Origin: Antiquaquibacter soli
GTDB taxonomy: Bacteria > Actinomycetota > Actinomycetes > Actinomycetales > Microbacteriaceae
DNA: 64,000 nt
Reading direction: 5' to 3'
Assembly (NCBI RefSeq): GCF_030580675.1
Contig: NZ_JAUQUB010000005.1
Coordinates: 1-64,000, forward strand
Part shown: positions 29,259-52,258 of the stretch, in pieces
How positions within the stretch are numbered: position 1 is the first letter of the stretch
How the letters are laid out: every line of letters begins with the position of its first letter
Program-made: the position numbers and the translations under genes
Notes under the pieces: model-generated
What the model was told of the DNA's origin: nothing
Database searches by the model: none
The model's input: only the letters and a program-made list of their open reading frames with translations

Positions 29259-30272
29259 TTACAGCGCCAGCAGCAACTCGAGATTCTTCGGGCTCCGCTC
29301 GAGCGTTCCCGCCTCGATCTGACGGGCGAGTGCCACGGTGTGCGCGTTGTAAGGTGCTGCCTCGCCACGGCGACCGAGCACGTCCACGACGAGTCCGTTC
29401 ACCTCGGCGACCTCGCCGCGGCGGCCCTTCATCCAGTCCTGCAGCACGGTCGTGCGCGTGTCGGGCAGGGAGTACTTGTCGAGCACCTCGCCGAGGAGGT
29501 CCTGCGCGTACTGGTCGGGGCTGGTCACCTGATCGTCGGTGAGCCCGAAGATGGGCACGAGTCGCGAGCCGTCGGCGACGGCGGCTCGTGCCGCCTCCTT
29601 GCCGCACTCGATCATGAACTCGTGGACCCCCGGCATCCGCACCGCTTCGGCGAGGGGCACGTCGAGGATCGCGGACGGCACCAGCTCGCCGGCGTTGGCG
29701 ACGAGCTTCATCCACTTCGAGGAGCGGATGTCGTCGGAGACCTCGACGGTGCCGGCGTGCTTCAGCACCGACTGCACGAGCTCCGCCCGATCGCGCAGCG
29801 CCGGGTCGAGGGCGCCGACGGCGAACCACGACCCCGCCACCTCGGTCTGCCTGTTGACGATGCCGGGCTCGAACATGTTCGAGGCCATCTCGATGACCGC
29901 CCCGATGGTGCGCTCCCGGCCGACGATCGATGCGACGTCGTCGATCGACATGCCGTTCTGCAGGCCCACCACAAGCCCGTCGTCGGCCAGGAGCGGCTTG
30001 ATGAGCTCGACGGCCCAGCGGGAGTCGTAGGCCTTGACGAGCAGGAAGACGATGTCGAAGGGCTCGCGGAGCGTCGCCACCTCGCACAAGTGCAGGGCGC
30101 GCACCGGGGTGACTTCGGTGTGACTCGGGAACCGCACTTCGATGCCGCGCTCGCGCATCGCCTCGACGTGGGCGGGCCACTGCTCGATGAACGTGACGTC
30201 GAGCCCGGCCCGCGTCAGATCCGCTCCGATTCCCGCGCCCTGAGCGCCCGTGCCGACGAATGCGATCTTCAC
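29259..30272 (-). CDS. Ketopantoate-reductase-like dehydrogenase, copy 1 of tandem pair
   Basis: 337-residue member of the PanE/ApbA family: N-terminal Rossmann fold (IAFVGTGAQGAGIGADLTRA), the NADP-loop region, and the catalytic Lys region SSKWMKLVANAGELVPSA. The C-terminal helical domain is complete. It is a close paralogue of the next gene (30323-31342), sharing blocks such as EQWPAHVEAMR and LCEVATL. Being catabolic-island members, these two may reduce or oxidise a 2-oxoacid or hydroxyacid other than ketopantoate. GTG start with a GGGAG site and its own promoter (TTGACC-16-TACAGT). Confidence 0.82.
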   Translation of the reverse strand: MKIAFVGTGAQGAGIGADLTRAGLDVTFIEQWPAHVEAMRERGIEVRFPSHTEVTPVRALHLCEVATLREPFDIVFLLVKAYDSRWAVELIKPLLADDGLVVGLQNGMSIDDVASIVGRERTIGAVIEMASNMFEPGIVNRQTEVAGSWFAVGALDPALRDRAELVQSVLKHAGTVEVSDDIRSSKWMKLVANAGELVPSAILDVPLAEAVRMPGVHEFMIECGKEAARAAVADGSRLVPIFGLTDDQVTSPDQYAQDLLGEVLDKYSLPDTRTTVLQDWMKGRRGEVAEVNGLVVDVLGRRGEAAPYNAHTVALARQIEAGTLERSPKNLELLLAL

Positions 30273-30298
30273 AGCATCACTCCCTTGTGTTCGCTGAT

Positions 30299-30326
30299 AC
30301 TGTACACGGCGTTCAGTTGAGGTCAA
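30299..30326 (-). promoter_or_regulatory. Promoter of the first KPR-like gene with an operator-like motif in the spacer
   Basis: On the minus strand: -35 TTGACC (30326-30321), 16-bp spacer, -10 TACAGT (30304-30299), about 27 bp before the GTG start. The spacer contains TCAACTGAAC (30320-30311), related to motifs near 31440, 35713 and 42853, in the right place for a repressor. Confidence 0.6.
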
Positions 30327-31342
30327 CCTAGCGCGCGCCGCAGCGGGGTGACGAGGGAAGGCGACGGCTCGAGCTCCCCGCTCTCGATGCGGTGGGCGAT
30401 GGAGACGACGGCCGCGTTCACGGGCGTCGGGATGCCCGTGCGCGCGCCCTCGGCGACGACCGTGCCATTGATGTCGTCGACCTCGCTGTGGCGCGACTTC
30501 GACCAGTCCTGCAGGACGGTCGTGGTCGCTCCCGGGAGGACGAAGCCGCGGTAGAGCGTGTCGAGGAGGGTCTCCACGACCTCCTCGGGACGCTCGACGT
30601 CTTCCGGGGTCAGCCCGAAGATCGGCAGGATCGGATGCCCGAGCGCCCGACCCACGTCGAGCGCTTCCTGCCCGGCCGCGAGCATGACCTCGCGCAGGCC
30701 GTCGAGCTCGATCGCGTCGGCCATCGGCAGGCCGACGATCGCCGTCGGCACGAGCACCGTCGAGTTGCTCACGAGCTTCATCCACTTCGTGGCCTCGATC
30801 GATTCGACGATCGAGACGGTCCCGGAGTGGCGCAGCAGCGCGGCGACCTCCTCCTCGCGGCCGACCGGGCCGCCGGGGAGGGCGCCCACGGCGAACCATG
30901 AGCGGTCGGGCCCGGAGTGACGGTGGACGACACCCGGATCGGTCATCGTCGACGAGATCTCGATCACGGTGCCCATCGTGCGCTCGACCCCGACGACGTC
31001 GGCGATCGTGCGCGTCGACATCCCGTTCTGCACGCCGGCGACGAGTCCGTCAGCAGCGAGGTAGGGCTCGATGAGCTGCGCCGCCCAACGCGAGTCGTAG
31101 GCCTTCATGAGCATGAGCACGACGTCGAAGGGCTGCTTGAGCGTCGCGACCTCGCACAGGTGCATCGTCCTCGGCTGCACGTGGAGCTCGCGGTCGGGCA
31201 TGCGGATGCTGAGCCCGGAGGCGCGCATCGCCTCGACGTGGGCGGGCCACTGCTCGACGAGCGTGACATCCAGCCCCGCAGCCGTCAGATCGGCGCCGAT
31301 GGACGCGCCGTTCGCGCCGGATCCGAGCACAGCGATTCGCAT
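30323..31342 (-). CDS. Ketopantoate-reductase-like dehydrogenase, copy 2 of tandem pair
   Basis: 339-residue paralogue of the adjacent gene: IAVLGSGANGASIGADLTAA nucleotide fold, MKAYDSRWAAQLIEPYLAAD, and the catalytic-Lys segment TKWMKLVSNSTVLVPTA. Start ATG 31342 has AGGAG 5-6 nt upstream and is preferred over in-frame extensions to 31387. Divergent from the first amidohydrolase; the 126-bp gap contains two TGAAC-type motifs. It lies 50 bp upstream of copy 1, so read-through is possible. Two diverged copies side by side suggest two related substrates or a heteromer. Confidence 0.82.
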   Translation of the reverse strand: MRIAVLGSGANGASIGADLTAAGLDVTLVEQWPAHVEAMRASGLSIRMPDRELHVQPRTMHLCEVATLKQPFDVVLMLMKAYDSRWAAQLIEPYLAADGLVAGVQNGMSTRTIADVVGVERTMGTVIEISSTMTDPGVVHRHSGPDRSWFAVGALPGGPVGREEEVAALLRHSGTVSIVESIEATKWMKLVSNSTVLVPTAIVGLPMADAIELDGLREVMLAAGQEALDVGRALGHPILPIFGLTPEDVERPEEVVETLLDTLYRGFVLPGATTTVLQDWSKSRHSEVDDINGTVVAEGARTGIPTPVNAAVVSIAHRIESGELEPSPSLVTPLRRALG

Positions 31343-31375
31343 TCCCACTCCTTTGTCGGTGCACAGTTCTACAGC

Positions 31376-31452
31376 TCGATTGAACACTTTGTGCCGTAGG
31401 ACTTGTCATTCTGCCAGTTGAGCGGCAGAGTGTGAATCGTCACTGAACATTC
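31376..31452. promoter_or_regulatory. Divergent regulatory gap with TGAAC motifs
   Basis: Between KPR copy 2 and the first amidohydrolase. ATTGAACACTTT starts at 31379 and TCACTGAACATTCTC spans 31440-31454, about 15 bp upstream of the amidohydrolase start. The nonamer TCACTGAAC is repeated exactly at 42853-42861. CTGCC and GGCAG form a small inverted repeat between them. No confident -35/-10 pair was found. Confidence 0.5.
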
Positions 31453-31468
31453 TCAACGAGGAGAACAG

Positions 31469-32896
31469 ATGAACGCACCTGCGCCCGAGGACTTCTCGGC
31501 GGGCCGTCCCGTCGTATTCCGCAACGGCATCGTCATCACCGTCGACACCCCCGGAGTACTGCACGACGCAGACGTCCTGGTGGTCGGCGACACCATCCAG
31601 GCCGTCGGCCCGAAGCTCGCCGTGCCCGAGGGCACGCTCGAGATCGACGCGAGCGGGGGCATCCTGATGCCCGGCATGGTCGACACCCACCCCCACATGT
31701 GGCAGACGGCGCTGCGCGGCTACGGCGGCGACTGGGCCCTCAGCCAGTACTTCGTGTTCTACTACCTGCAGCACGGCGAGGTCTTCCGCCCGGAGGACAT
31801 CTACGCGGGCAACCTGCTGAGCGCGCTCGAGTCCGTCGACACCGGCGTGACGACGACCCTCGACTGGTCGCACGCGCTGCGGACTCCGGAGTACGCGGAT
31901 GCCGCCCTCCAGGCCTTCGACGAGATCCCGGGCCGCTTCGTGCTCGGCTACGGCAACTACCTCGGAGCCCCGTGGGAGTGGACCGCCGACCCCGCCTTCC
32001 GCTCGTGGATCGCCAACTTCAAGCACAGCGACCACCTGGGACTTCAGATCGCGTTCGACGTGCCCGACTCGGAGGACTTCCCCGAGCTCGCCGCGTTCCA
32101 GTACGCGCGGGACAACGGCATCCGGGTCACCACGCACGCCGGCGTATGGGGCGCGACGACCGACAACGGCATCTCGCACATGTACGACGCGGGGGTCATG
32201 ACCGACCAGATCACCTACGTGCACGCGGCGAGCCTCAGCCCCGACAGCTACCACAAGATCGCTGCAACCGGCGGCACGGTATCCGTCGCGACCGAGAGCG
32301 AGCAGAGCGCCGGACAGGGCTACCCGTCGACGTGGGAGATCCGCAAGTACGGCATCCCCGCGTCGCTGTCGATGGACACGAGCGTGTGGTGGAGCGCCGA
32401 CTACTTCTCGGCGATGCGCGCGACGCTCAGCTCCGACCGCTCCCGCGACCACCTCGAGGCCCACCGCAAGGGCGAGACGGTCAACGTCAACCGCATGCGT
32501 GCGGAGGACGCCATCTGGATGGCCACCATGGGCGGCGCGAAGTCGCTCGGCATGGAGAGCTCGATCGGCTCCATCACGCCGGGCAAGAAGGCCGACCTGC
32601 TGCTCATCAAGAACGACCAGTCGCCGGCGATGACGCCCATCCTCAACCCCACCGCGCACGTCGTCTACCAGGCCGGCACCGCAGACATCCACACCGTGGT
32701 CGTCGGCGGCCGCGTGGTCAAGTACGAGGGCACCCGCATCGGCATGGACCTCGCCCCCGTTCGCGACATCGTCGCGAAGTCGGTCGAGTACGTGCGCGGC
32801 AAGCTCGGCGAGCAGGCCTGGGAAGAGGGGATGCACCCGCCCCTGAACCCCGACGAGCCCATCGAGAACCCGTACCAGTACACCGAGGACGACTAA
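31469..32896 (+). CDS. Amidohydrolase of the TRZ/ATZ (cytosine deaminase-like) class, no. 1
   Basis: 475-residue metal-dependent hydrolase. The HxH metal motif is in GMVDTHPHMWQT near residue 77 (a Pro where the two paralogues have Arg). The third His is in VTTHAGVW, the fourth in YVHAASLSP, and the metal Asp in SMDTSVWW. These enzymes deaminate or dechlorinate heterocycles or hydrolyse C-N bonds. GAGGAG 5 nt before the ATG. It starts a four-gene operon (amidohydrolase, Dabb, dehydrogenase, amidohydrolase). Only distantly similar to the other two, so it should act on a different intermediate. Confidence 0.85.
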   Translation: MNAPAPEDFSAGRPVVFRNGIVITVDTPGVLHDADVLVVGDTIQAVGPKLAVPEGTLEIDASGGILMPGMVDTHPHMWQTALRGYGGDWALSQYFVFYYLQHGEVFRPEDIYAGNLLSALESVDTGVTTTLDWSHALRTPEYADAALQAFDEIPGRFVLGYGNYLGAPWEWTADPAFRSWIANFKHSDHLGLQIAFDVPDSEDFPELAAFQYARDNGIRVTTHAGVWGATTDNGISHMYDAGVMTDQITYVHAASLSPDSYHKIAATGGTVSVATESEQSAGQGYPSTWEIRKYGIPASLSMDTSVWWSADYFSAMRATLSSDRSRDHLEAHRKGETVNVNRMRAEDAIWMATMGGAKSLGMESSIGSITPGKKADLLLIKNDQSPAMTPILNPTAHVVYQAGTADIHTVVVGGRVVKYEGTRIGMDLAPVRDIVAKSVEYVRGKLGEQAWEEGMHPPLNPDEPIENPYQYTEDD

Positions 32897-32902: not shown

Positions 32903-33214
32903 ATGATCCTGCACCTCGCCACCTTCCGCTGGAAGGACGACGTGACCGCGGCCGATGTGGCCGAGCTGACCGACGCGCTGCGCGACATGGCGGCGGGCAT
33001 CCCGGAGCTGCGCTCCTATGTCTGCGGAGAGAGCCTGCGCTTGCGCCCCGGCGGAGCCGATTTCGGCGTCGCCGCGATCGTCGCGGACGAGGACGGCCTG
33101 AACGCCTACCTCGACTCCGCGGCGCACGCGGCGGTGTACGAGCGGCTGCTCGGCCGCATGATCGCGGAGCGGGCGGCGGTGCAGCTGCCGGTCGAGTCGA
33201 GCGCGTGGCTGTGA
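32903..33214 (+). CDS. Dabb (stress-responsive A/B barrel) protein
   Basis: 103-residue ferredoxin-like dimeric alpha/beta barrel protein. The family start MILHLATFRWKDDVT (strand, then the conserved F/W-K pattern) and a LRSYVCGESL strand are clear. Members include small oxygenase- or cyclase-like enzymes and ligand-binding proteins. ATG 6 bp after the amidohydrolase stop; its TGA overlaps the next ATG (TGATG), so it is in the operon. In this context it may process or bind a pathway intermediate. Confidence 0.8.
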   Translation: MILHLATFRWKDDVTAADVAELTDALRDMAAGIPELRSYVCGESLRLRPGGADFGVAAIVADEDGLNAYLDSAAHAAVYERLLGRMIAERAAVQLPVESSAWL

Positions 33215-34272
33215 TGCGCGCGGGAGTCCTCCACGCGGCGGGCGACCTCCGCGTGGAGGACAAGCCCGTGCCCGTGCCCGGCCCGGGCGAGGTGCTCGTG
33301 CGCGTCGCCGTGTGCGGCGTGTGCGGGTCGGATGCGACCGAGTTCGACCGCGGCCCCGTTCTCACGGAGCTCCCCGTCACGCTCGGTCACGAGTTCGCGG
33401 GGGTCGTCGAGGCGGTCGGCGAGGGCGTCACCTCGCTCGCGCCCGGTGCCGTCGTCGTCTGCGGCGCGGGCATCTCGTGCGGCGAGTGCAAGCCGTGTCG
33501 GCAGGGGCGCACCAACCTGTGCAGGTCCTACCGGACGGCGGGTCTGCAGGTGGACGGAGGGCTCGCCGGGTTCGCGGTCGTGCCGGCGGGCATCCTGCTG
33601 GATGTCACGGCCACGGGTCTGCCTCTCGACACCCTCGGCCTCGCCCAGCCCATGGCCATCGCGGTGCACGCCGTGCGCCGCTCGGGGCTGCGCGCGGGCG
33701 ACGACGCGGTCATCGTCGGCGTCGGCGGGATCGGCGCGTTCGTCACCTTCGCGGCGGCCGCGACCGGGGCGCGCGTGCTCGTCGTCGACCTGAGCGGTGC
33801 ACGGCTCGAGCTCGCTCAGCGCCTCGGCGCGACCGCGACGTTCCGATCGGGTGACGGCTCGCTCGCCGAGCAGCTCGAGCGGGCGGGGATGGATGCGGAT
33901 GTCCTGTTCGAGGTGAGCGGCTCGGCCGCCGGGCTCGCGTCCGTGCTGGATGCCGCGAAGCCCGGCGCGACGATCGTGCCGATCGGCATCCAGAAGGCCG
34001 ACGTGCCGGTTCCGCTCGGAGCCTGGACGCTCCGCGAGTACACGATCATCGGGACGGTCGCCCACGCGGTCGCCGACGACCTGCCGGAGGCTGTCAGGCT
34101 TCTCGCCCTGCGGGACGACTGGTCAGACATCGCGGGCGAGGTCGTGCCGCTCGACGACGTCGTCGAGCACGGGCTCCGCCCCCTGCTAGCAGGCGGCGCG
34201 AGCCAGATCAAGACCCTCATCGACCCCTGGACCGAGTCGGCTCGACCGGCCGAGCACGCGAGGCACGCATGA
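33214..34272 (+). CDS. Zinc-dependent alcohol dehydrogenase (MDR family)
   Basis: 352-residue medium-chain dehydrogenase. The catalytic zinc ligands are in VCGVCGSDATEF (Cys) and GHEFAG (His/Glu). The structural-zinc Cys cluster is GISCGECKPCRQGRTNLC. The NAD-binding GVGGIGAFVTF is near residue 172. It resembles threonine, sorbitol or glutathione-independent formaldehyde dehydrogenases. ATG overlaps the Dabb stop by one base, and its own stop overlaps the next gene (ATGA), giving tight coupling. It would oxidise a hydroxyl intermediate of the pathway. Confidence 0.88.
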   Translation: MRAGVLHAAGDLRVEDKPVPVPGPGEVLVRVAVCGVCGSDATEFDRGPVLTELPVTLGHEFAGVVEAVGEGVTSLAPGAVVVCGAGISCGECKPCRQGRTNLCRSYRTAGLQVDGGLAGFAVVPAGILLDVTATGLPLDTLGLAQPMAIAVHAVRRSGLRAGDDAVIVGVGGIGAFVTFAAAATGARVLVVDLSGARLELAQRLGATATFRSGDGSLAEQLERAGMDADVLFEVSGSAAGLASVLDAAKPGATIVPIGIQKADVPVPLGAWTLREYTIIGTVAHAVADDLPEAVRLLALRDDWSDIAGEVVPLDDVVEHGLRPLLAGGASQIKTLIDPWTESARPAEHARHA

Positions 34273-35699
34273 AGACCCTCATCACCGACGCCGCCGTCGT
34301 CACCATGGACCCGGAGCTCGGGGACTTCGAGCGCGCGAACATCCTCATCGAGGACGGCCGCATCGTCGCCGTCGCGCCGGGGCTCGAGGCCGACGCCGAG
34401 CGCATCGACGGGTCCACCAAGATCGCGATGCCGGGCATGGTCGATACCCACCGGCACACCTGGCAGACGGCGCTGCGCGGGATGCTCGCCGACGGCAACA
34501 TCCCCGACTACCTCCGGGGCATCCGACTGCAGATGGCGCCGCGCTACCGGGCGGTCGACATGTACGCCGGCAACTACGTCGGCGCGCTCGACGCCCTCAA
34601 CAGCGGAGTCACGACGCTCGTGGACTACTGCCACAACATCCTCGATCCCGAGTGCGCCGACGGCGCGGTGACGGGGCTGCGGGACGCGGGCATCCGCGCG
34701 CTCTACGGCCACGGGCTCACGCCGATCACGACGAACACGTGGAGCGAGAGCAAGGGCGGCCAGGAGGGTGCGGTCGACCCCGCGGACCTCGCCACTCGCG
34801 CGGCTCTGGCGCGGCGCATCCGCGACGAGTACTTCCCGACCGACTCGGGGCTGCTGCGCTTCGGCATCGCGCCGCAGGAGCTCGCGATCGCGCCGGCTTC
34901 GACCGTGCAGGCGGAGTTCGCCCTCGCCCGGGAGCTCGGTGCGCGCATCACCATGCACGCCAACCAGGTCATGGTCCGGCAGCTCTTCAAGGATGTCGAG
35001 GTGCTCGCCGAGCACGGACTCCTCGGCGACGACCTGCTGCTCGTGCACTGCACGTTCAACACGGCCGAGGAGTGGGAGCTGCTGCGCGACACCGGCACGA
35101 TGGTGTCGGTCTGCGCGGAGACCGAGATGCAGATGGGCATGGGCTACCCGGCGATCGCGGAGGTGACCGAGTACACGCGCGGCCCCAGCCTCGGCATCGA
35201 CTGCGTGAGCGGCTGCGGGGGAGACATGATCTCGCACAGCCGACTCGTGCTGCAGGCCACGCGGTACCGCGCCGACGAGCCCGGCTACCAGGAGTGGAAG
35301 GCTCCCCAGGTCATGTCATGGACGACTCGGGATGCCCTGCGCTGGCTCACCGTCAACGGCGCTGCCGCCGCCGGCATGGGCGACGAGATCGGTTCGCTCA
35401 CCCCGGGCAAGCGAGCGGATCTCGTGCTCCTCGAGATGGGCGGCGTCAGCCAGGCGGGCTGGAACCGCCGCGACCCCGCCGGGGCGATCGTCGCGCAGGC
35501 GCACGCGGGCTGCGTGGACACGGTTCTCGTCGAGGGTCGCGTCGTCAAGCGCGGCGGGGAGCTCGTCCACGTGGATGTCGCCGCGGCCCTCCGCGGACTC
35601 GAGGAGTCGCACGAGTACTTGCAGCAGCAGATGGACGAGAACGGCGGGTTCATCCCTCAGCCGCCCATCGACATCCCCCTCTACCGGGAGCGCGCCTAG
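34269..35699 (+). CDS. Amidohydrolase of the TRZ/ATZ class, no. 2
   Basis: 476-residue hydrolase with the canonical metal site: GMVDTHRHTWQTALRG (HxH), ITMHANQVM, LLVHCTFN, and the Asp in LGIDCVSGCGGDM. Closest in type to the 8-oxoguanine/guanine-deaminase and chlorohydrolase group, but the substrate is not decided by sequence. The ATG overlaps the dehydrogenase stop. Final gene of the 31469 operon. It is closer to amidohydrolase no. 3 than to no. 1, sharing for example DTHRHTWQ and GGDM. Confidence 0.86.
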   Translation: MKTLITDAAVVTMDPELGDFERANILIEDGRIVAVAPGLEADAERIDGSTKIAMPGMVDTHRHTWQTALRGMLADGNIPDYLRGIRLQMAPRYRAVDMYAGNYVGALDALNSGVTTLVDYCHNILDPECADGAVTGLRDAGIRALYGHGLTPITTNTWSESKGGQEGAVDPADLATRAALARRIRDEYFPTDSGLLRFGIAPQELAIAPASTVQAEFALARELGARITMHANQVMVRQLFKDVEVLAEHGLLGDDLLLVHCTFNTAEEWELLRDTGTMVSVCAETEMQMGMGYPAIAEVTEYTRGPSLGIDCVSGCGGDMISHSRLVLQATRYRADEPGYQEWKAPQVMSWTTRDALRWLTVNGAAAAGMGDEIGSLTPGKRADLVLLEMGGVSQAGWNRRDPAGAIVAQAHAGCVDTVLVEGRVVKRGGELVHVDVAAALRGLEESHEYLQQQMDENGGFIPQPPIDIPLYRERA

Positions 35700-35712
35700 C
35701 GCCCTCTCCGAC

Positions 35713-35780
35713 GAATGTTCATTGAGAGTAAACATTATGGTCACTCTCACTTGACACTCGTGCAGTGCCGCTTCTAGCAT
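35713..35780 (+). promoter_or_regulatory. Promoter and operators of the transporter operon
   Basis: -35 TTGACA (35751-35756), 18-bp spacer, -10 TAGCAT (35775-35780), about 75 bp before the third amidohydrolase. Directly upstream is the inverted repeat TGAGAGT (35723-35729) / ACTCTCA (35743-35749) with a 13-nt spacer. Overlapping its left arm on the minus strand is TCAATGAACATTC (35725-35713), related to the motif at 31440. This looks like a regulated sigma-70-type promoter. Confidence 0.7.
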
Positions 35781-35854
35781 GGCGATACACACCCAACGCG
35801 TCGTGGCGGTCGGTCGACAACCACGTCGCCCACCACCTGGAGTCAACGACGACT

Positions 35855-42720: not shown

Positions 42721-42852
42721 TCTGTCTCCCGCCATCGTGGGGTCGTCATTGACCCGACCGTTCACCAAGTATCCAGCACCGGCGCACAGATCCTCGACAT
42801 TGTCGCGGTAGCCTCGGTGCGACCGTTTATCTCTACTAAACACCATTCTGTC

Positions 42853-42877: not shown

Positions 42878-42893
42878 TCGGGGGAGGTCACTC

Positions 42894-44276: not shown

Positions 44277-44278
44277 GC

Positions 44279-45136
44279 GTGATCGGATTCCTCGGACTCG
44301 GCTCGATGGGCTCGGCGATGGCCGGGCGCCTTGTCGAGACCGGGCACGACGTGCTCGCGTGGAACCGCAGTGCCGGGCCCGCCGAGGCGATCGCCGGGGC
44401 ATCCGTCGCCGCGACCGCCGCCGAGGCGCTCGCCCAACCGGTCTCGTTCTCGATGCTCGCCAACGACGAGGCCGCGGATGCCGTGCTCTCCGTCGAGGCG
44501 ATCGGCGACGCACCGGGGCGCATCCACGTCAACACGGCGTCGATCAGCATGCGGCTCGCGGGAGTGCTCCAGGAGCGCTTCGAGTCGGCGGGAGTGCGCT
44601 ACGTCGCCGCCCCCGTGCTCGGGCGCCCGCCGGTCGCGGCGGCGGGTCGGCTGAACATCCTCGCCGCCGGCAAGCCCGACGACGTGGATGCCGTGCTCCC
44701 GCACCTCGAGGCGCTCAGCGCCCGGGTCTGGAGGCTCGGCGAGAAGCCGCCGATGGCGAACGCCGTCAAGATCGCGGTGAACTACAACATCATCCACGCG
44801 CTCGAGGCGATCGGGGAGTCCGTCGCCCTCGTCGAGCGGCAGGGTATCGACGCCGCCGAGTTCACGGACTTGCTGTCGAGCACGCTCTTCGGCGGTGTCG
44901 TGTACGAGGGCTACGGGCGCATCATCGCCGAAGAGAAGTACGTGCCGCCGGGCTTCACCGTCACCCTCGGCCTCAAGGACCTCTCGCTCGCCGAGGAGAT
45001 CGCCGAGGCGGGCGGCGTCACGCTGCCCACGGCCCCCGCGCTGCGCTCGGTGTTCGAGCGGACCCTCGCCGAGCCATCCCTCGCCGACGCCGACTGGGCC
45101 GCGATCGCCGAAGTCGCCCGGCGCGACCTGAGCTGA
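44279..45136 (+). CDS. 3-hydroxyisobutyrate-dehydrogenase-like oxidoreductase
   Basis: 285-residue beta-hydroxyacid dehydrogenase: Rossmann motif IGFLGLGSMGSAMAGRL at the start, the substrate segment VNTASISMRLAGVL, and the catalytic Lys in ANAVKIAVNYNIIHALEAIG. Members oxidise 3-hydroxyacids or reduce semialdehydes such as tartronate semialdehyde. GTG 44279 has GGGGAGG 8 nt upstream; a GTG six bases earlier that overlaps the previous stop is the alternative. Sits between the creatinase-like gene and the SDR in one transcript. Confidence 0.86.
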   Translation: MIGFLGLGSMGSAMAGRLVETGHDVLAWNRSAGPAEAIAGASVAATAAEALAQPVSFSMLANDEAADAVLSVEAIGDAPGRIHVNTASISMRLAGVLQERFESAGVRYVAAPVLGRPPVAAAGRLNILAAGKPDDVDAVLPHLEALSARVWRLGEKPPMANAVKIAVNYNIIHALEAIGESVALVERQGIDAAEFTDLLSSTLFGGVVYEGYGRIIAEEKYVPPGFTVTLGLKDLSLAEEIAEAGGVTLPTAPALRSVFERTLAEPSLADADWAAIAEVARRDLS

Positions 45137-45165: not shown

Positions 45166-45873
45166 GTGACTGACCGCACCATCCTCGTCGTCGGCGGCAC
45201 CTCGGGCATCGGCCTCGAGATCGCCCGCGACACCATCGCCCGCGGCGACTCCGTCGTGCTCACCGGTCGCGACCAGGCCCACGCCGACGAGGTCGCGGCG
45301 TCGCTCGGCGACCGCGCCACGGGAGTGGCGCTCGACATCTCCGAGCCGGAGGCGATCGCCGGCCACCTCGCCGGGGTCGGCCGCATCCACGGCTTGGTGC
45401 TCGCCGCAATCGAGCGCGACGCGAACAGCGTGCGCGAGTACAGCATCGAGCGCGCACGGCGGCTCGTGACCCTCAAGCTCGTGGGCTACACGGAGGTCAT
45501 CCACACGATGCTCGACCGCCTCGACCCGACCGTCGACACCGGCATCGTGCTCTTCGGCGGCCGCGCGAAGGACCTGCCCTACCCGGGTTCGACGACGGTC
45601 TCCACCATCAACGGCGGAGTCGAGGGCCTCACGATGACGCTCGCGCTCGAACTCGCCCCCATCCGCGTCAACGCCCTGCACCCCGGCATCATCGGCGACA
45701 GCCCGTTCTGGGCGAGCAAGCCCGAGGGAGTGCTCGACGGCTACAAGTCACGTACGCCGGGCGGCGAGCTCGCGACGATGGCGGACGTCGTGGATGCCAC
45801 GCAGTTCCTGCTCCGCAACCGCGGCATCTCCGGCACGAGCATCGCGATCGACCGCGGGTGGCGCATCACCTGA
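45166..45873 (+). CDS. Short-chain dehydrogenase-like protein lacking the Tyr/Lys pair
   Basis: 235-residue SDR-fold protein. The nucleotide motif VGGTSGIGLEIARD is intact and the C-terminal half is typical (VEGLTMTLALELAPIRVNAL, HPGI). At the active site, where YxxxK is expected before VEGL, the sequence is VSTIN, so both Tyr and Lys are missing, and the preceding Ser region reads FGGRAKD. It may use another chemistry or have lost dehydrogenase activity. GTG start with AAGGAGG 5 nt upstream, 29 bp after the previous gene. Two 65-bp palindromes follow. Confidence 0.8.
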   Translation: MTDRTILVVGGTSGIGLEIARDTIARGDSVVLTGRDQAHADEVAASLGDRATGVALDISEPEAIAGHLAGVGRIHGLVLAAIERDANSVREYSIERARRLVTLKLVGYTEVIHTMLDRLDPTVDTGIVLFGGRAKDLPYPGSTTVSTINGGVEGLTMTLALELAPIRVNALHPGIIGDSPFWASKPEGVLDGYKSRTPGGELATMADVVDATQFLLRNRGISGTSIAIDRGWRIT

Positions 45874-45952: not shown

Positions 45953-45979
45953 AGTGCACGGCCACAGTCTTCCAGGGTC

Positions 45980-46053: not shown

Positions 46054-47427
46054 TCAGGCTTTCCAGACCGACTTCGCGTTGGTGAACTCGCGGATGCCCT
46101 CCACCGAGAGCTCGCGACCGAGGCCCGAGTCCTTCGTGCCACCGAAGGGCACCTGCGGGTACGAGATCGACATACCGTTGACGAACACCGCCCCCGCGTC
46201 GAGGCCCGCGATCGCGCGGCGCTCCTCGTCGGCATCCTGCGTCCACACCGCCGAGCTCAGCCCGAACGTCGTGTCGTTCGCGATCTCGAGCGCCTCCTCG
46301 AGGGATGACGCGCGGAACACCGTCGCCACCGGGCCGAACGCCTCCTCGGCGTAGAGCCGCATCGCCTTCGTCACCCCCGTGACCACCGTCGGCGGGTAGA
46401 ACCAGCCGGGTCCCTCGGGCACGGTGCCGCCCGTCGTCGCGACGGCGCCCTGAGCGAGCGCGTCGGACACGAGCTCGGCGACCTCGTCGCGGCCCGAGCT
46501 CGTCGCGAGCGGGCCGACGTCGGTCGCGTCATCCCGGGGGTCCCCGACGACGAGCGCGGCCATCGCGGCGGTGAAGCGCTCTACGAACGCGTCGTAGACG
46601 TCCTCGTGCACGATGAAGCGCTTGGCGTTGATGCACGCCTGGCCGTTGTTGCTCGTGCGGGCCGTCACGGCGGTCGCGACCGCGGCATCCAGGTCCGCGC
46701 TGGGGAGGACGAGGAAGGGGTCCGACCCGCCGAGCTCGAGCACGACGTGCTTCACCTCGGAGCCGGCGATGGATGCCACGGACCGCCCCGCAGGCTCGGA
46801 GCCGGTGAGCGTCGCCGCCACCACGCGGCGGTCGCGCAGCACGCCCTCGACCTCGCGCGCCCCGATGAGCAGAGTGTTGAACGACCCCGCCGGGAACCCG
46901 CCGCGCTCGAAGATCGCGTCGAGGTAGAGCGCGGCCTGCGGCACGTTCGAGGCGTGCTTGAGCAGCACCGTATTGCCCGCCATGAGCGCGGGAGCGGCGA
47001 AGCGGATGACCTGCCACAGCGGGTAGTTCCACGGCATGACGGCGAGCACGACGCCGATCGGCTCGTAGACCGTGTACGCGCGAGAGGCGTTCACCGCCGC
47101 GGCATCCAGCTCGCGGCCGGTGAGGAACTCTTCGGCGTGCTCGGCGTAGTAGCGCAGGTTGGTGGCCGACTTGCGGACCTCGGCGCGCGATTGCGCGAGG
47201 GTCTTGCCCATCTCGAGGGTCAGCATCGCGGCCGTCTCCTCGACCTCGGCGTCCATGAGGTCGGCGGCGGCGCGCATCCACGCGGCGCGCTCCGCGAAGG
47301 TCGTCGAGCGCAGGGCGCGGTACGCCTCGTGCGACTGCGCGATGCGCCGCTCGATCTCGTCGGCGTCGTGCGGCTCGAACTCGGCGACGGTCTCGCCCGT
47401 GGTCGGGTCGATCGTGGCGATGGGCAT
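46054..47427 (-). CDS. NAD(P)-dependent aldehyde dehydrogenase (succinate-semialdehyde type)
   Basis: 457-residue aldehyde dehydrogenase of the GabD/SSADH group. The catalytic Glu is in VVLELGGSDPFLV, the nucleophile Cys in NNGQACINAKRFIV, the cofactor segment VMPWNYPLWQVIRFAAPALM is present, and FGGTKDSGLGREL closes the fold. It would turn a pathway semialdehyde into an acid. ATG start; it is the last gene of VOC-GntR-ALDH on the minus strand, 24 bp after the regulator. Confidence 0.9.
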   Translation of the reverse strand: MPIATIDPTTGETVAEFEPHDADEIERRIAQSHEAYRALRSTTFAERAAWMRAAADLMDAEVEETAAMLTLEMGKTLAQSRAEVRKSATNLRYYAEHAEEFLTGRELDAAAVNASRAYTVYEPIGVVLAVMPWNYPLWQVIRFAAPALMAGNTVLLKHASNVPQAALYLDAIFERGGFPAGSFNTLLIGAREVEGVLRDRRVVAATLTGSEPAGRSVASIAGSEVKHVVLELGGSDPFLVLPSADLDAAVATAVTARTSNNGQACINAKRFIVHEDVYDAFVERFTAAMAALVVGDPRDDATDVGPLATSSGRDEVAELVSDALAQGAVATTGGTVPEGPGWFYPPTVVTGVTKAMRLYAEEAFGPVATVFRASSLEEALEIANDTTFGLSSAVWTQDADEERRAIAGLDAGAVFVNGMSISYPQVPFGGTKDSGLGRELSVEGIREFTNAKSVWKA

Positions 47428-47451: not shown

Positions 47452-48111
47452 CTAGTCGGAGAAGACTTCGGGGTGGCGAGCGAGCTCCAGTCGGGTGCGA
47501 CGGATGTGGCCGGTCAACACGCGCTCGGCATCCTCGGCGTCGCGGCGGCGCAGCGCCGACACGAGCAGGTGGTGCTCGAAGTGCACGCTGCGGTCGTCGG
47601 AGCCGCGCACGCGCATGAACGCGCGGCGGTAGTGCTGGGTGCGGTTCCACAGCTGCAGCACGGTGTCGCCGAGCACGCTCGTCTCCGCGACCGCGTAGCT
47701 CGACAGGTGGAACTCGCGGTCGAGTCCGATGAACTCCTCGAGGTCGTCGGTGGCCTCCATCGCGGCGGCGAGCCGGTCGAGCTCGTCGATCTGGCCCTCG
47801 CTCAGCAGCGGCACGTTGTAGCGCAGCAGCAGCGGCTCGATCCGCTCGCGGATCTGGTACATCTCCTCGCACTCCGCGAGGCTCAGCCGCGACACCCACG
47901 CGCCCGTGTTGGCGACGAGCGTGACGAGGCCCTCGCCCTCGAGCATCCGCAGCGCCTCGCGCACGGGCAGACGACTGGCGCCGTGGCGGTCGGCGAGGTC
48001 CTCCTGACGGATGCGCGCTCCCGGCTCGAACTCGCCGGCGAGGATGGACCGGCGCAGGTCGTCGGCGATGCGGGTACCGGCGGCGCCGTGCGGCGCGGGC
48101 GTGGCGGTCAT
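47452..48111 (-). CDS. GntR-family regulator with an FCD domain (FadR-like)
   Basis: 219-residue regulator: N-terminal winged helix (IRQEDLADRHGASRLPVREA with RMLEGEGLV) and a C-terminal all-helical FCD domain. FCD metal-ligand residues (Asp in GLDREFHLSS, His in FEHHLLVSAL and GHIRRTR) suggest an acid ligand, as in related carboxylate-sensing members. ATG 48111, 5 bp after the VOC gene. The palindrome GATTGTATTGGAAACAATC overlapping the E1 promoter is its likely operator, and a half-like site lies before the VOC gene. It probably represses both divergent transcripts. Confidence 0.9.
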   Translation of the reverse strand: MTATPAPHGAAGTRIADDLRRSILAGEFEPGARIRQEDLADRHGASRLPVREALRMLEGEGLVTLVANTGAWVSRLSLAECEEMYQIRERIEPLLLRYNVPLLSEGQIDELDRLAAAMEATDDLEEFIGLDREFHLSSYAVAETSVLGDTVLQLWNRTQHYRRAFMRVRGSDDRSVHFEHHLLVSALRRRDAEDAERVLTGHIRRTRLELARHPEVFSD

Positions 48112-48116
48112 GGTCA

Positions 48117-48674
48117 CTATTGTGCGGCCCCGCCCTCGGCCGGGGGCACCGGCTCGGCCGGGTGCGCCGGGTGCCAGAGCTTCACCGGCGCATCGGCCTC
48201 GTACGCCTTGCCGCCGGGGAAGCTCACGAGCTCGAACTGCATGCCCCACGGGCTCCGGAAGTACACCCAGCGCTGGCCGAGCGCGGGGCCCGCGCTCGCG
48301 GTGGGGGCACCCATGATCTCGACACCGTGCGCGCGGAGGTGCTCGAGTGCGGCATCCATGTCGTCCACGTAGAGCGCGAGGTGGTGCCCGCCGATGTCGC
48401 TGTTGCGCGGCTGGGGCGCCTGCCCGTCGGCCGAGTCGTACTTGAAGGTCTCGATGTTGCTGCCGTTGCCGAGGCGGTAGAAGCGGATCTCGCGGATGAC
48501 CGTGCGCGGGTGGACGCCGAGGTGGATGCTCATCCACTCGTCATCGGACTGCTTCGGGCCGAGCGTGTAGATGTGCTGCGCCCCGAGCACCTCGATGAGG
48601 AACGCCTCCGCCTCGTCGAGGTCGGGGACCGTGATGCCGATGTGGTCGATGCCTCGCATTCCGGGGATGGCCAT
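48117..48674 (-). CDS. VOC-superfamily (glyoxalase/dioxygenase-fold) protein
   Basis: 185-residue two-module VOC protein. The four metal-ligand positions are filled: His in IDHIGITVPDL, Glu in NIETFKYD, His in GHHLALYVDDM and Glu in FELVSF. Members include glyoxalase I, extradiol dioxygenases and methylmalonyl-CoA epimerase. ATG 48674 has AAGGAG 5 nt upstream. A longer reading to 50633 would run antisense through E1 and is rejected. First gene of VOC-GntR-ALDH, divergent from E1-E2. Confidence 0.85.
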   Translation of the reverse strand: MAIPGMRGIDHIGITVPDLDEAEAFLIEVLGAQHIYTLGPKQSDDEWMSIHLGVHPRTVIREIRFYRLGNGSNIETFKYDSADGQAPQPRNSDIGGHHLALYVDDMDAALEHLRAHGVEIMGAPTASAGPALGQRWVYFRSPWGMQFELVSFPGGKAYEADAPVKLWHPAHPAEPVPPAEGGAAQ

Positions 48675-48688
48675 GGCGACTCCTTCGT

Positions 48689-48778
48689 CTATTGGATACA
48701 GTCTCTCCCAAAAGTCGGGCAAAAGCCAGGACACCGCCCCGCCCAAGGATTGTATTGGAAACAATCTGGGGGTATCGT
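48689..48778. promoter_or_regulatory. Divergent control region with GntR operators and the E1 promoter
   Basis: GATTGT-ATTGGAA-ACAATC (48748-48766) is a GntR/FadR-type palindrome. CTATTGGATACAGTC (48689-48703) resembles one side of it in the opposite orientation, just upstream of the VOC gene. The plus-strand promoter is -35 TTGTAT (48750-48755), 17 bp, -10 TATCGT (48773-48778), then 7 nt to the E1 ATG. The operator covers the -35, so binding should repress. Confidence 0.72.
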
Positions 48779-48785
48779 GCTCGAC

Positions 48786-50975
48786 ATGGCACGACAACGA
48801 CGTCTCAGCACCGGTGTGGACTGGATCGAGCTCACCACCACGCCCGCCGACTGGAAGGCCGCCGATCCGGCGCTCCTCGGCACGATGCTCACGCAGCTCC
48901 ACCTCATCCGTGCCTTCGAGGAGACCGTGCTCGAGCTCGCCGGGGAGGGCCTCGTCCACGGACCCGCCCACTCGAGCATCGGGCAGGAGGGCGGCGCGGT
49001 CGGATCGATCGTCGGGTTGCGGTCGACGGATGCCGTCAACGGTTCCCACCGCGGACACCACCAGTTCCTCGCCAAGGCCATCACCCACGTCTCCGGCGGC
49101 GCTCTCGACCCTTCCGCGCCGTTCGACGCGCGCGTTCAGGAAGTGCTGCAGCGCAGCCTCGCCGAGATCCTCGGCCTCGCCCAGGGGTACTGCCGGGGTC
49201 GCGGCGGCTCGATGCACCTGCAGTGGTTCGAGGCGGGAGCGCTGGGCACCAACGCGATCGTCGGCGGCGGCGCCCCCGCCGCGACCGGCAACGCGTGGGC
49301 GCAGAAGCACTCCGGCACGACCGACCTCACCATCAACTACTTCGGCGACGGCGCGAGCCAGATCGGCTCCGTGCTGGAGTCGATGAACCTCGCGGCGACG
49401 TGGCAGCTGCCGGTGTGCTTCTTCATCGAGAACAACCTCTACGCCGTGGCCACCAACGCGTCGGAGATCAGCGCGGACGGCCGCTTCTCCGTGCGCGGGC
49501 AGGGCTTCAGCATCCCTGCGTGGCGCGTCGACGGCATGAACCCCCTCGCCGTGCACCTCGCCATGGAGCAGGCGGCCGAACGGATGCGCGCCGGCGACGG
49601 CCCCACCATCATCGAAGCCGAGGTCTACCGCTTCTTCCACCAGAACGGCCCCTACCCGGGCAGCGCATTCGGCTACCGCACCAAGGAGGAGGAGGCCGCG
49701 TGGCGTGCCCGCGACCCCCTCGACCGGCAGGCGAAGGAGATGATCGCCCTCGGACTCATCAGTGAGGAGCAGGTCGCCGATCTCCGCGCCCGCGCCCAGG
49801 CGGCGATGACCGCGGCAGCGGGGGAGCTGCTCGAGGCCGACCCCGAGGCCGAGGGGAAGCGCCGCATCCGCCCCGACCTCTGGCCCGACCCGGGATTCGT
49901 CAACGTCGGGGTGCGCGGGGATGCGAGCGAGCTCGAGTCCCTCACCGTGGCCGACCCGGTGGAGTACACGGGCGCCTGGCGCGACACGAAGTTCGTCGAG
50001 GCCGTCTCGGGCGTCATGGACCGCCGCATGGCCCAGGACGATCGCATCGTCGTGCTCGGTGAGGACGTGCACCGCCTCGGCGGCGGCACGAACGGCGCCA
50101 CGAAGGGACTCGCCGCGAAGTACGGGCCCGGGCGCATCCTCGGCACTCCGATCAGCGAGAACGCGTTCACCGGGCTCGCGGAGGGACTCGCCCTCGACGG
50201 GCGCTACCGTCCCGTCGTCGAGTTCATGTACCCGGACTTCATGTGGGTCGCTGCCGACCAGGTCTTCAACCAGATCGGCAAGGCGCGGCACATGTTCGGC
50301 GGCGACAACCCCGTGCCGCTCGTGCTGCGCACCAAGGTCGCGATGGGCTCGGGCTACGGCTCGCAGCACCTCATGGACCCCGCAGGCATCTTCGCCACGA
50401 GTCCGGGCTGGCGCATCGTCGCCCCCTCGACGGCCGCCGACTACGTGGGCCTCATGAACGCGGCCCTCGCCCTGCAGGACCCGGTGCTCGTCATCGAGCA
50501 CGTCGACCTGTACGGCACCGCCGACCGCGTGCCCGAGGGCGACCTCGACTACATCCTGCCGCCGGGCCGCGCGGCCGTGCGGCGGAGCGGGTCGGATGTC
50601 ACGGTCATCTCCTACCTCTCGATGGTCCGCCACGCGGCAGAGGCCATCGAGCAGACCGGCATCGACGCGGAGCTCATCGACCTGCGGTGGCTCGACCGGG
50701 CCTCGATCGACTGGGAGACCATCGGCGAGAGCATCCGCAAGACCAACGCCGTGCTGATCGTCGAGCAGGGCGCGCAGGGCACCTCATACGGGGCGTGGCT
50801 CTCCGACGAGATCCAGCGCCGGTTCTTCGACTGGCTTGACCAGCCGATCGAGCGCGTCACGGGAGCGGAGGCGAGCCCGAGCATCTCGAAGGTGCTCGAG
50901 CGCGCGGCGATCGCGCGGACCGAGGAGGTCGTCGCCGGGCTCGAGCGCGTGCGCGCCGGGATGGGAGCGCGCTGA
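48786..50975 (+). CDS. 2-oxoacid dehydrogenase E1, alpha and beta fused
   Basis: 729-residue thiamine-diphosphate enzyme. The alpha-type half (about 25-380) has the TPP motif opening FGDGASQIGSVLESM and closing FIENN. The beta-type half (about 395-729) has TKFVEAVSGVMDRRM, VVLGEDV, FMYPDFMWVAADQVFNQIGK and VEQGAQG. Normally the two halves are separate subunits. It decarboxylates a 2-oxoacid and hands the acyl group to the E2 gene downstream. The type suits pyruvate, branched-chain or acetoin substrates. TATCGT 7 nt before the ATG predicts a leaderless mRNA. Stop and E2 ATG overlap (TGATG). Confidence 0.9.
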   Translation: MARQRRLSTGVDWIELTTTPADWKAADPALLGTMLTQLHLIRAFEETVLELAGEGLVHGPAHSSIGQEGGAVGSIVGLRSTDAVNGSHRGHHQFLAKAITHVSGGALDPSAPFDARVQEVLQRSLAEILGLAQGYCRGRGGSMHLQWFEAGALGTNAIVGGGAPAATGNAWAQKHSGTTDLTINYFGDGASQIGSVLESMNLAATWQLPVCFFIENNLYAVATNASEISADGRFSVRGQGFSIPAWRVDGMNPLAVHLAMEQAAERMRAGDGPTIIEAEVYRFFHQNGPYPGSAFGYRTKEEEAAWRARDPLDRQAKEMIALGLISEEQVADLRARAQAAMTAAAGELLEADPEAEGKRRIRPDLWPDPGFVNVGVRGDASELESLTVADPVEYTGAWRDTKFVEAVSGVMDRRMAQDDRIVVLGEDVHRLGGGTNGATKGLAAKYGPGRILGTPISENAFTGLAEGLALDGRYRPVVEFMYPDFMWVAADQVFNQIGKARHMFGGDNPVPLVLRTKVAMGSGYGSQHLMDPAGIFATSPGWRIVAPSTAADYVGLMNAALALQDPVLVIEHVDLYGTADRVPEGDLDYILPPGRAAVRRSGSDVTVISYLSMVRHAAEAIEQTGIDAELIDLRWLDRASIDWETIGESIRKTNAVLIVEQGAQGTSYGAWLSDEIQRRFFDWLDQPIERVTGAEASPSISKVLERAAIARTEEVVAGLERVRAGMGAR

Positions 50976-52258
50976 TGGCCACCGTCATCCGGATGCCCGA
51001 GGTGCTCGCCGGGGCCTCGGAGGCCGCGATCCAGTCGTGGCTCGTCGAGCCCGGGCAGGACCTCTCCGTCGGCACGCCGCTCGCCGAGATCGAGACCGAG
51101 AAGGCCGTCGTCGAGTACGCCGCCGAGACCGGTGGCACCGTTCTCAAGCTCCTCCTCGAGGAGGGGGTCTCCGCGAAGGTGGGCGACCCGATCGCGGTCG
51201 TCGGGGCGCCCGGCGAGTCCGCGGATGACGCGGCGCCTGCAGCCCCCGCCGCGGTGCCCGCCGCCCCGGAGCCCGCCGCGGCACCCGCATCCCCATCTAT
51301 TTCCGCTTCTCCGGAGCCGGCGGCCGCACCCGCCCCGGCCCCGGAGACCTCTGCCCCGGTCTCGGTTTCTCCCGAGCCCGGCGATCACGCGCGCCGCTTC
51401 GCAAGCCCGCTCGTGCGCCGTTTGGCTCGCGAGCGCGGGCTCGACCTCGCGCGCATCACGGGCACCGGCCCGGGCGGGCGGATCGTGCGGCGGGACCTCG
51501 ACGGAGTGGACGCTGCCGCCGCATCCACCGCTCCGGAGCCCACCCCCGGAGAAACGACCACGCCGGCGGTCGCCTCGGGCGAAACGCAGCTCGTGCCGCA
51601 CACCGCCATGCGGCGGGCCATCGCGCGGCGGCTCACCGAGAGCAAGTCGACGGTGCCGCACTTCTACCTCGTCGCCGACTGCCGCGTCGACCGTCTCCTC
51701 GCGCTGCGAGCAGAGATCAACGAGAGCGCCCCGACGAAGATCTCCGTCAACGACTTCGTGCTCAAGGCGGCGGCCGCGGCGTTCCTCGCGGTTCCCGAGG
51801 CGAACGCCACGTGGGGTGAGCAGGCCGTGACCCGCTACTCGACGGTCGACATGTCGGTCGCCGTCGCCATCGAGGGCGGTCTCGTCACCCCGGTGCTGCG
51901 CTCGGTCGAGTCGCTCACGCTCGGCGAGATCGCGCGCTCCGTCGCCGACCTGGCTGAGCGGTCGCGCGCCGGCAAGCTGCGGCAGCACGAGCTCGAGGGC
52001 GGCAGCTTCGCCGTCTCGAATCTTGGCATGTACGGCATCACCGAGTTCTCGGCGATCATCAACCCGCCGCAGTCGGCGATCCTCGCGGTGGGCCGCGCTC
52101 GGCCCGAGGCGGTCGTGGTCGACGGCGCGATCGAGGTCGCGACGGTCATGACGGTCACCCTCTCGGCCGACCACCGCGTGCTCGACGGTGCCCTCGCCGC
52201 CCAGTGGTTGGCCGCGTTCGTGAAGAACATCGAGAACCCGCTCGGGATGCTCGTCTGA
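50975..52258 (+). CDS. 2-oxoacid dehydrogenase E2 (dihydrolipoyl acyltransferase)
   Basis: 427-residue E2: one lipoyl domain with lipoyl-Lys in EIETEKAVVEYAAE near residue 45, an Ala/Pro-rich linker (about 80-130), an E1/E3-binding domain (ASPLVRRLARERGLDLARIT), and the catalytic domain with HRVLDG (SADHRVLDGALAAQW). It transfers the acyl group to CoA. ATG overlaps the E1 stop. No E3 (dihydrolipoamide dehydrogenase) gene is in the window, so E3 must be shared from elsewhere. Confidence 0.93.
   Translation: MATVIRMPEVLAGASEAAIQSWLVEPGQDLSVGTPLAEIETEKAVVEYAAETGGTVLKLLLEEGVSAKVGDPIAVVGAPGESADDAAPAAPAAVPAAPEPAAAPASPSISASPEPAAAPAPAPETSAPVSVSPEPGDHARRFASPLVRRLARERGLDLARITGTGPGGRIVRRDLDGVDAAAASTAPEPTPGETTTPAVASGETQLVPHTAMRRAIARRLTESKSTVPHFYLVADCRVDRLLALRAEINESAPTKISVNDFVLKAAAAAFLAVPEANATWGEQAVTRYSTVDMSVAVAIEGGLVTPVLRSVESLTLGEIARSVADLAERSRAGKLRQHELEGGSFAVSNLGMYGITEFSAIINPPQSAILAVGRARPEAVVVDGAIEVATVMTVTLSADHRVLDGALAAQWLAAFVKNIENPLGMLV

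Follow-up and report, generated by a model that had tools for sequence, protein, structure and literature searches.

The Peptidase_M24 domain is common to prolidase, creatinase, DddP and ectoine hydrolase, with creatinase having the M24 fold without metal ligands. In deaminases of the TRZ/ATZ type the Glu of an HxxE motif is catalytic. CUT2 importers such as RbsABC, XylFGH and LsrABCD work with binding proteins of the Peripla_BP_4 family, whereas acetoin and pyruvate dehydrogenases (PDH) combine an E1 carrying a thiamine pyrophosphate (TPP) motif with a lipoyl E2. Here, we report that relatives of all these systems stand together in an island of 19 genes, at positions 29259-52258 of a 64,000-nucleotide stretch of Antiquaquibacter soli contig NZ_JAUQUB010000005.1 (the window). 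The genes were called by codon usage, with the caller trained on the window, and Pfam and NCBIfam scans of the 19 proteins bore out the families that an earlier note on this DNA had listed for nineteen adjacent genes. No described pathway with this gene set was found in the open full-text literature, which misses most subscription journals, and the earlier note had likewise known of none. We consider it probable that the genes form a substrate-inducible catabolic island, in which a constant lower pathway is combined with an exchangeable entry module in one chromosomal slot.

The slot lies between two convergent border genes, at 28263-29258 on the left and 52320-53600 (DUF4032) on the right. 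Among 24 other genomes of the genus, seven carry the M24 core between the same border genes (gaps of 19.8-35.0 kb), 14 have a gap of 33 bp to 4.9 kb with no core, and in three the slot is broken by contig ends, M24 being present in two of them. Short slots include those of genomes G601 (33 bp), G606 (61 bp) and G611 (4.9 kb, containing a relative of the aldehyde dehydrogenase, ALDH); G145 has a short slot, yet keeps an M24 gene approximately 21 kb away. The border genes are also no more than 0.5 kb apart in 7 of 15 order-level relatives. Close relatives with the island, with another entry module, or without the island thus provide a natural experiment.

The content was read for all seven filled slots and for six of the 14 short ones. 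The M24 protein, a dehydrogenase similar to hydroxyisobutyrate dehydrogenase (HIBADH-like), the GntR regulator, the VOC protein, E1, E2 and ALDH are constant in 7/7 filled slots, and the cupin regulator is found in six of them, G604 having a more distant one. The remaining content differs from slot to slot. G610 and G594 hold the same set as the window; G607, G600 and G592 hold an amidohydrolase-1 relative, a bicupin, the short-chain dehydrogenase/reductase (SDR) and an MFS protein, together with a CUT2 importer that is split; G591 combines the second ketopantoate reductase-like enzyme (KPR_B), the Dabb protein and the zinc-dependent alcohol dehydrogenase (Zn-ADH) with a split importer; and G604 has a different importer and three other Zn-ADHs. 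The island is therefore a constant core with a swappable importer and swappable entry enzymes in one slot. Between the window and G610, flank identity is 87% and core identity 90%, compared with 85-88% and 71-81%, respectively, for the other six. In flank and core trees of the eight filled slots, the window and G610 group together in all four, and G604 and G591 shift; the trees do not discriminate between block exchange and differing rates, and the pattern of trees and identities suggests, short of proof, exchange rather than differing rates.

The gene neighbourhood, which the earlier note had proposed to seek in other Microbacteriaceae, proved to be co-conserved. In a family sample of 199 genomes from 85 genera, the binding protein has matches in 27 genomes at 1e-20, six of which (the source genome included) reach at least 64% identity. 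Within 40 kb read around the binding protein in the other five, all 19 genes were found in G036 and G191, 14 in G026, 13 in G042 and seven in G093; in the latter two, M24 and E1 are located on a separate contig. Within the genus, G610 and G594 also have 19/19 genes. M24 (E 1e-120) occurs in 38 of the 199 genomes, 31 of which hold its first subfamily. The fused E1 occurs in 50 genomes, 37 of them shared with M24 (9.5 expected), and KPR_B or a relative in 28, of which 26 are shared (5.3 expected). At the level of genera (n=85), M24 is found in 23 and E1 in 31, and all 23 M24 genera have E1; KPR is found in 17, with M24 present in 16 of those. M24 and KPR are less than 30 kb apart in 26/26 genomes, M24 and E1 in 32/37.

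Because of this co-conservation the island genes belong together, and the island is a real co-inherited catabolic unit with a modular layout, beyond chance. The earlier reading of one pathway gains from the co-occurrence, the common slot and the probable shared operators; as a description of all 19 genes it is too simple, since a core and exchangeable entry modules have to be distinguished. That the slot accepts different gene sets and that the front-end genes vary could also mean that unrelated metabolic genes piled up, by chance or opportunistically, where integration is frequent. We regard this as highly improbable, as the same core combination is found again in further genera and at different sites, the GntR-type operators are conserved, and the genus-level co-occurrence disfavors it.

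A wider set of 86 M24 loci, consisting of 80 of at least 538 confirmed candidates and six plasmid regions, was inspected for partners at 45% identity or higher. Flanks for the 80 loci extend at most 10 kb, hence all partner counts are lower bounds: HIBADH-like, at least 62; cupin regulator, at least 50; VOC, at least 48; E1, at least 47; GntR, at least 46; E2, at least 37; SDR, at least 29; KPR_A (the first ketopantoate reductase-like enzyme), at least 25; Zn-ADH, at least 20; amidohydrolase 1, at least 17; amidohydrolase 3, permease and fused ATPase, at least 15 each; binding protein, at least 14; ALDH, at least 13; amidohydrolase 2 and Dabb, at least 12 each; and KPR_B, at least 10.

The protein at the center of the core has an altered M24 site. 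In an alignment of 83 rows, D281, H358, E391 and E406 are invariant, and position 292 is Cys in 82, including three proteins from Rhodobacterales and one haloarchaeal protein; Asp is found only in the outgroup, annotated as an Xaa-Pro aminopeptidase. Solved prolidases have their second metal Asp at this position, so that the five-residue dinuclear site of Xaa-Pro peptidases (M24B) is not retained. The best NCBIfam match is DddP, at 107.3 bits against an equivalog cut-off of 600, and ectoine hydrolase is among the weaker matches. The DddP ligands are given in a passage of PMC4108388 as Asp295, Asp307, His371, Glu406 and Glu421; from motif spacing, rather than from an alignment to DddP, we take Cys292 to correspond to Asp307, and this second Asp is Cys in 82/82 sequences. 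In contrast to the ligand-free creatinase, the island protein keeps four ligand positions invariant. Thus, by the features that define these enzymes, the "creatinase-like" protein of the earlier note is neither a creatinase nor a DddP, and the Xaa-Pro peptidase annotation carried by M24 relatives is most probably wrong. In a phylum-wide sample of 396 genomes, such relatives were found in 35 (E 1e-60, with identities down to 35%). Some genomes with the first M24 subfamily also have a second one, 55-60% identical, at G191:C139, G009:C1, G018:C32, G032:C4 and G594:C1.

Both the TPP-dependent E1 and the lipoyl E2 of a 2-oxoacid dehydrogenase complex are present in the island. The nearest solved relatives of the E1 are PDH E1 proteins, and the TPP motif and lipoyl E2 resemble those of acetoin and pyruvate dehydrogenases; the island system differs from these in its fused E1alpha-E1beta, in having no E3 in the island, and in its tie to M24. 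The fused 2-oxoacid dehydrogenase of the earlier note is accordingly a fusion of E1alpha and E1beta, with E2 encoded by a separate gene. The tie to M24 extends beyond the family. Of the 34 other genomes of the phylum with an M24 match, 19 supplied 20 stretches for comparison; M24 adjoins a split E1alpha-E1beta in 15 of these stretches, is separated from it by one gene in one, and has no E1 within the stretch in four. In 3/3 plasmid regions of Rhodobacterales (Phaeobacter, Marinovum, Pacificitalea), an M24 protein 53-55% identical to that of the island stands in the order SDR-M24-E1alpha-E1beta-lipoyl protein-SSADH-E2, SSADH being a succinic semialdehyde dehydrogenase. Like the island, these clusters carry an SSADH-like ALDH, E2, SDR and a CUT2 importer; unlike it, the fetched stretches have neither an amidohydrolase nor a KPR among their annotated genes, and contain a second binding protein. 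We found no functional description of these clusters.

As M24 so often adjoins E1alpha and E1beta, the simplest reading is that M24 yields the 2-oxoacid on which E1 would act. Upstream parts vary among the variants and include CUT2 and branched-chain-type importers, amidohydrolases, Zn-ADHs, hydantoinase A/B and an amidase. In the 20 stretches from outside the family, a relative of amidohydrolase 3 occurs in eight, a bicupin in eight and a relative of the SDR in seven; this combination near M24-E1 (L213-L232, other Actinomycetota) may constitute a sub-pathway. Ureidoglycine aminohydrolase was considered for the bicupin partner and dropped, no such NCBIfam match being found in the two that were scanned. 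Inositol-type genes beside E1/E2 in G133 score below cut-offs, are limited to one genus and lack M24, and were taken as chance.

In the mechanism that we propose, the CUT2 importer would take up a small polar compound, whose redox state would be adjusted by the KPR-like, Zn-ADH and HIBADH-like enzymes, and which the three metal-dependent hydrolases of the amidohydrolase fold would open or trim. In the core, the Cys-bearing M24 protein would cleave an intermediate to a 2-oxoacid (or alpha-hydroxyketone) and a second fragment; the dedicated E1alpha/beta-E2, with an E3 encoded elsewhere in the genome, would convert the 2-oxoacid to an acyl-CoA, and the SSADH-like ALDH would oxidize a semialdehyde. 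The order suggested by the earlier note, with import first and the acyl-CoA-forming E1/E2 last, agrees with this as far as the families tell. More tentatively, and with considerable doubt, the clusters may represent an undescribed pathway distributed across Actinomycetota and Rhodobacterales, with a new Cys-site class of M24 proteins feeding its own E1/E2; the importer and entry enzymes being exchanged as a block in one chromosomal slot, one core would then serve several related substrates. If so, current annotation misses a class of nutrients that many Actinobacteria use, and the pita-bread fold would support new C-C, C-N or lyase chemistry.

The nature of the substrate was approached through the entry enzymes. 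All three amidohydrolases belong to Amidohydro_1 and to the NCBIfam subfamily PRK08204, with the cut-off passed by two of the three, and their metal site (HxH, His, His and Asp) is invariant in 22 aligned sequences, the same five ligands as in TrzN, AtzA and the methylthioadenosine/S-adenosylhomocysteine (MTA/SAH) deaminase (subtype III). The fold match comes from amidohydrolase 3, whose AlphaFold2 (AF2) model (pLDDT 88) is nearest to MTA/SAH deaminases, AtzA and TrzN (TMq ~0.82). In contrast to these enzymes, whose solved representatives have Glu aligned at the HxxE position, each island paralogue has its own fixed substitute: Val in 21/21 sequences of paralogue 1, Gln in 17/17 of paralogue 2 and Asp in 20/20 of paralogue 3. 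An amidohydrolase-3 match in G042 (C4:305308-306678) contains one in-frame TGA, either a decayed gene or a sequencing error.

These substitutions bear on the proposal of the earlier note that an N-containing ring or amide is degraded, which it had drawn from "TRZ/ATZ-class" and "creatinase-like" enzymes. In its fuller form, the amidohydrolases and M24 would break C-N bonds of an amide, a lactam or another ring with nitrogen, and the carbon skeleton would proceed to succinic semialdehyde and an acyl-CoA. The TRZ/ATZ fold of amidohydrolase 3 agrees with it, as do the ALDH, which passes the SSADH cut-off, and ectoine hydrolase, by name an M24 C-N hydrolase, among the weaker matches. In relatives, hydantoinase A/B is found in entry modules, as are a gene annotated as amidase, accompanied by an importer of the branched-chain type, and RidA, a member of an imine/enamine hydrolase family. 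However, the catalytic Glu is missing from all three amidohydrolases in spite of the retained metal ligands, so the class assignment does not support the proposal; the island itself has no RidA gene, and other entry modules are rich in Zn-ADHs and sugar-like. Taken by itself, this reading is possible but rather unlikely.

A cyclic polyol or sugar-like compound is about equally likely; it would be imported by the CUT2 system, oxidized to ketones by the Zn-ADH and the KPR- and HIBADH-like enzymes, and passed to the TPP enzyme after C-C hydrolysis of a diketone by an amidohydrolase or M24. The CUT2 make-up of the island is complete, with a tandem ATPase, two BPD_transp_2 permeases and a Peripla_BP_4 binding protein of the allose/xylose/ribose type. 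It reaches no equivalog cut-off and differs from RbsABC, XylFGH and LsrABCD, with the same domain make-up, in the fusion of the second permease to the tandem ATPase. The Zn-ADH is nearest to IolM, an inosose dehydrogenase, though below the cut-off, at other M24 loci a CUT2 importer is accompanied by three additional Zn-ADHs, and by family the 19 genes contain no oxygenase or CoA ligase. CUT2 importers also accompany other M24-E1 operons together with LacI regulators, the one scanned being nearest to RbsR, below its cut-off. Such sugar-type importers, several Zn-ADHs and an RbsR-nearest LacI regulator fit a polyol or carbohydrate-like compound as well as the N-containing compound favored by the earlier note. 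On the other hand, CUT2 importers also take non-sugars, and other variants have importers of the branched-chain-amino-acid type and, where they lie on Paenarthrobacter plasmids, a flavin reductase in the vicinity.

A third candidate, a branched hydroxyacid similar to pantoate or hydroxyisobutyrate (e.g., from pantothenate), would be hydrolyzed, oxidized by the KPR- and HIBADH-like enzymes and passed to a branched 2-oxoacid dehydrogenase. The presence of a HIBADH-like enzyme and a 2-oxoacid dehydrogenase is in line with it, and the KPR fold keeps K189, N193 and E287 in 42/42 sequences; for the ketopantoate reductase family TIGR00745, KPR_B scores above the cut-off and KPR_A below. Yet Leu or Met occupies, in 42/42, the position that we take to match Asn184 of the E. 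coli enzyme, a pantoate-binding residue, the E1 is closer to PDH than to branched-chain 2-oxoacid dehydrogenase, the three amidohydrolases and M24 are left unexplained, and a search of the open literature for pantothenate catabolism brought up nothing useful. This candidate is thus very unlikely.

The protein that the earlier note called SDR-like does belong to the SDR family by domain scan; it lacks the YxxxK pair of classical SDRs, Val and Asn (V145/N149) replacing Tyr and Lys in 28/28 sequences. In view of the altered active sites, annotation labels such as "deaminase," "peptidase" and "SDR dehydrogenase" are better not carried over to these proteins.

In the window and 45 relatives, 46 sequences altogether, the divergent VOC/E1 region contains a conserved palindrome close to TTGTATTGGATACAATC. 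With a GntR-type motif fitted on these same 46 intergenic sequences, only two sites above 9 bits occur in the window, at 48750 (26.6) and 48687 (13.4), compared with 0-2 in five block shuffles. Among 91 such sites above 14 bits in relatives, 78 are located upstream of E1 and VOC and four upstream of E1; a further four precede ALDH, one precedes another binding protein, and four have no called gene. The palindrome is most likely the GntR operator, and the GntR protein would control E1/E2 and its own operon.

A cupin-type motif was learned only from the cupin/M24 regions of 18 relatives. Its four best window sites (31370, 35718, 30285 and 42826) all fall in intergenic regions of the island, which make up 504 bases, or 8.7% of the intergenic bases of the window. 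The site at 31370 scores 15.6, more than the top hit in any of ten shuffles (9.1-13.4), and of 22 KPR-front regions, that of the window included, 14 have a motif score above the 95th percentile of shuffles. Against this, training on the KPR-front regions gave a motif that passes in 9 of 19 cupin/M24 regions. The operator of the cupin regulator is thus only moderately supported, and this repressor probably controls the entry genes and the M24 operon. The earlier claim of two regulators with their own operators holds well for the GntR pair and to this lesser degree for the cupin regulator.

Several observations weigh against a substrate-inducible unit as proposed here. Seven of the 38 M24 genomes hold just the second subfamily, 58-59% identical. 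M24 is absent from 13 of the 50 genomes with E1, and in five of the 37 genomes with both genes they are not within 30 kb on one contig, which indicates that E1/E2 can serve elsewhere. Amidohydrolase 3 (1e-60) is found in 27 genomes, with M24 in 16 of those, a looser tie due to the threshold, which admits relatives of 35-45% identity. The AF2 model of the M24 protein (pLDDT 58) is too poor to place Cys292 in the metal site. As for regulation, the other three cupin-type sites do not outscore the top hits in shuffled sequence, and the three best window hits of the KPR-front-trained motif (8292, 63448 and 13701) lie outside the island, the fourth (31437) inside.

The features are listed in Table 1. 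On the minus strand the transcription units are KPR_A-KPR_B, the helix-turn-helix (HTH)-cupin regulator, and VOC-GntR-ALDH. Those on the plus strand comprise one from amidohydrolase 1 through Dabb, Zn-ADH, amidohydrolases 2 and 3, permease and binding protein to the fused ATPase-permease, a second with M24, HIBADH-like and SDR-like genes, and a third with the E1alpha+beta fusion and E2. By family, no E3, oxygenase, CoA ligase, integrase or transposase is found among the 19 genes. Composition does not mark the island, its G+C content (0.68-0.73 in 2-kb steps) being similar to that of the remaining window.

Table 1. Genes and putative regulatory regions of the island (window coordinates).
Feature	Coordinates	Strand	Remarks
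KPR-like oxidoreductase A (ApbA/ApbA_C)	29259..30272	-	TIGR00745 120.9, below cut-off of 141.35
KPR-like oxidoreductase B	30323..31342	-	TIGR00745 155.6, above cut-off
Divergent KPR_B/amidohydrolase 1 promoter region	31343..31468		Top-scoring cupin-type operator-like site in the window, 31370-31389
Amidohydrolase 1	31469..32896	+	PRK08204-like, below cut-off; HxH kept, Val at HxxE acid position
Dabb (stress-responsive A/B barrel) protein	32903..33214	+	Domain scan
Zn-dependent alcohol dehydrogenase	33214..34272	+	Nearest NCBIfam IolM/Tdh, all below cut-off
Amidohydrolase 2	34269..35699	+	Gln at HxxE acid position
Intergenic region with operator-like site at 35718	35700..35854		Motif scan
Amidohydrolase 3	35855..37243	+	Asp at HxxE acid position; AF2 pLDDT 88, TRZ/ATZ fold
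CUT2 permease	37240..38316	+	Domain scans
CUT2 substrate-binding protein (Peripla_BP_4)	38313..39500	+	Domain scans
Fused CUT2 ATPase-permease, 827 aa	39518..42001	+	Two ABC_tran and one BPD_transp_2
HTH and cupin (PuuR-like) regulator	42025..42720	-	Domain scans
Divergent cupin regulator/M24 promoter region	42721..42893		Operator-like site at 42826
M24-family protein, putative non-peptidase enzyme	42894..44276	+	D281, H358, E391, E406 kept; Cys292 for second Asp
HIBADH-like beta-hydroxyacid dehydrogenase	44273..45136	+	K166/N170 kept in 58/58
Atypical SDR-fold protein without YxxxK	45166..45873	+	V145/N149 in 28/28
Aldehyde dehydrogenase	46054..47427	-	PRK09406 (NADP-dependent succinic semialdehyde dehydrogenase) 747.9, passes cut-off of 730
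GntR/FCD regulator	47452..48117	-	Domain scans
VOC protein	48117..48674	-	H11 in 45/46 (one gap); H97, H98, E148 in 46/46
Divergent VOC/E1 promoter, two putative GntR operators	48675..48815		48687-48703, 48750-48766
Fused E1alpha+beta, TPP-dependent 2-oxoacid dehydrogenase, 719 aa	48816..50975	+	GDG...NN motif at 177
E2 acyltransferase	50975..52258	+	Lipoyl, E3-binding and catalytic domains; DHRVLDG

Sulfonamide degradation was also considered as a function, as the M24 module adjoins the sulfonamide-degradation gene sulR in Paenarthrobacter sp. R1. This link was rejected, and sulR read as a neighbor only, because M24 is widespread well beyond strains of this kind and passages of PMC10873849 speak of sad genes. 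On a Paenarthrobacter plasmid (L081, 18797-24479), the module beside sulR has the composition RidA-M24-HIBADH-SDR-LPD. Microbacterium sp. BR1 and M. lacus SDZm4 (L122, L123) have M24, HIBADH-like and SDR matches of the same identities.

Elsewhere in the window, a single tRNA gene is located at 57900, and 1.7 kb at 61136-62855 have no called gene, the rest being dense. Between the convergent SDR and ALDH genes, a 66-nt palindromic element is present as a tandem pair (45887-45952 and 45979-46044), and a similar hairpin is found 12 kb away at 57778-57842. The element occurs at 11 places in the genome (up to three mismatches), compared with none for the reversed control, and looks like a repetitive extragenic palindromic (REP)-type repeat or a family of bidirectional terminators.

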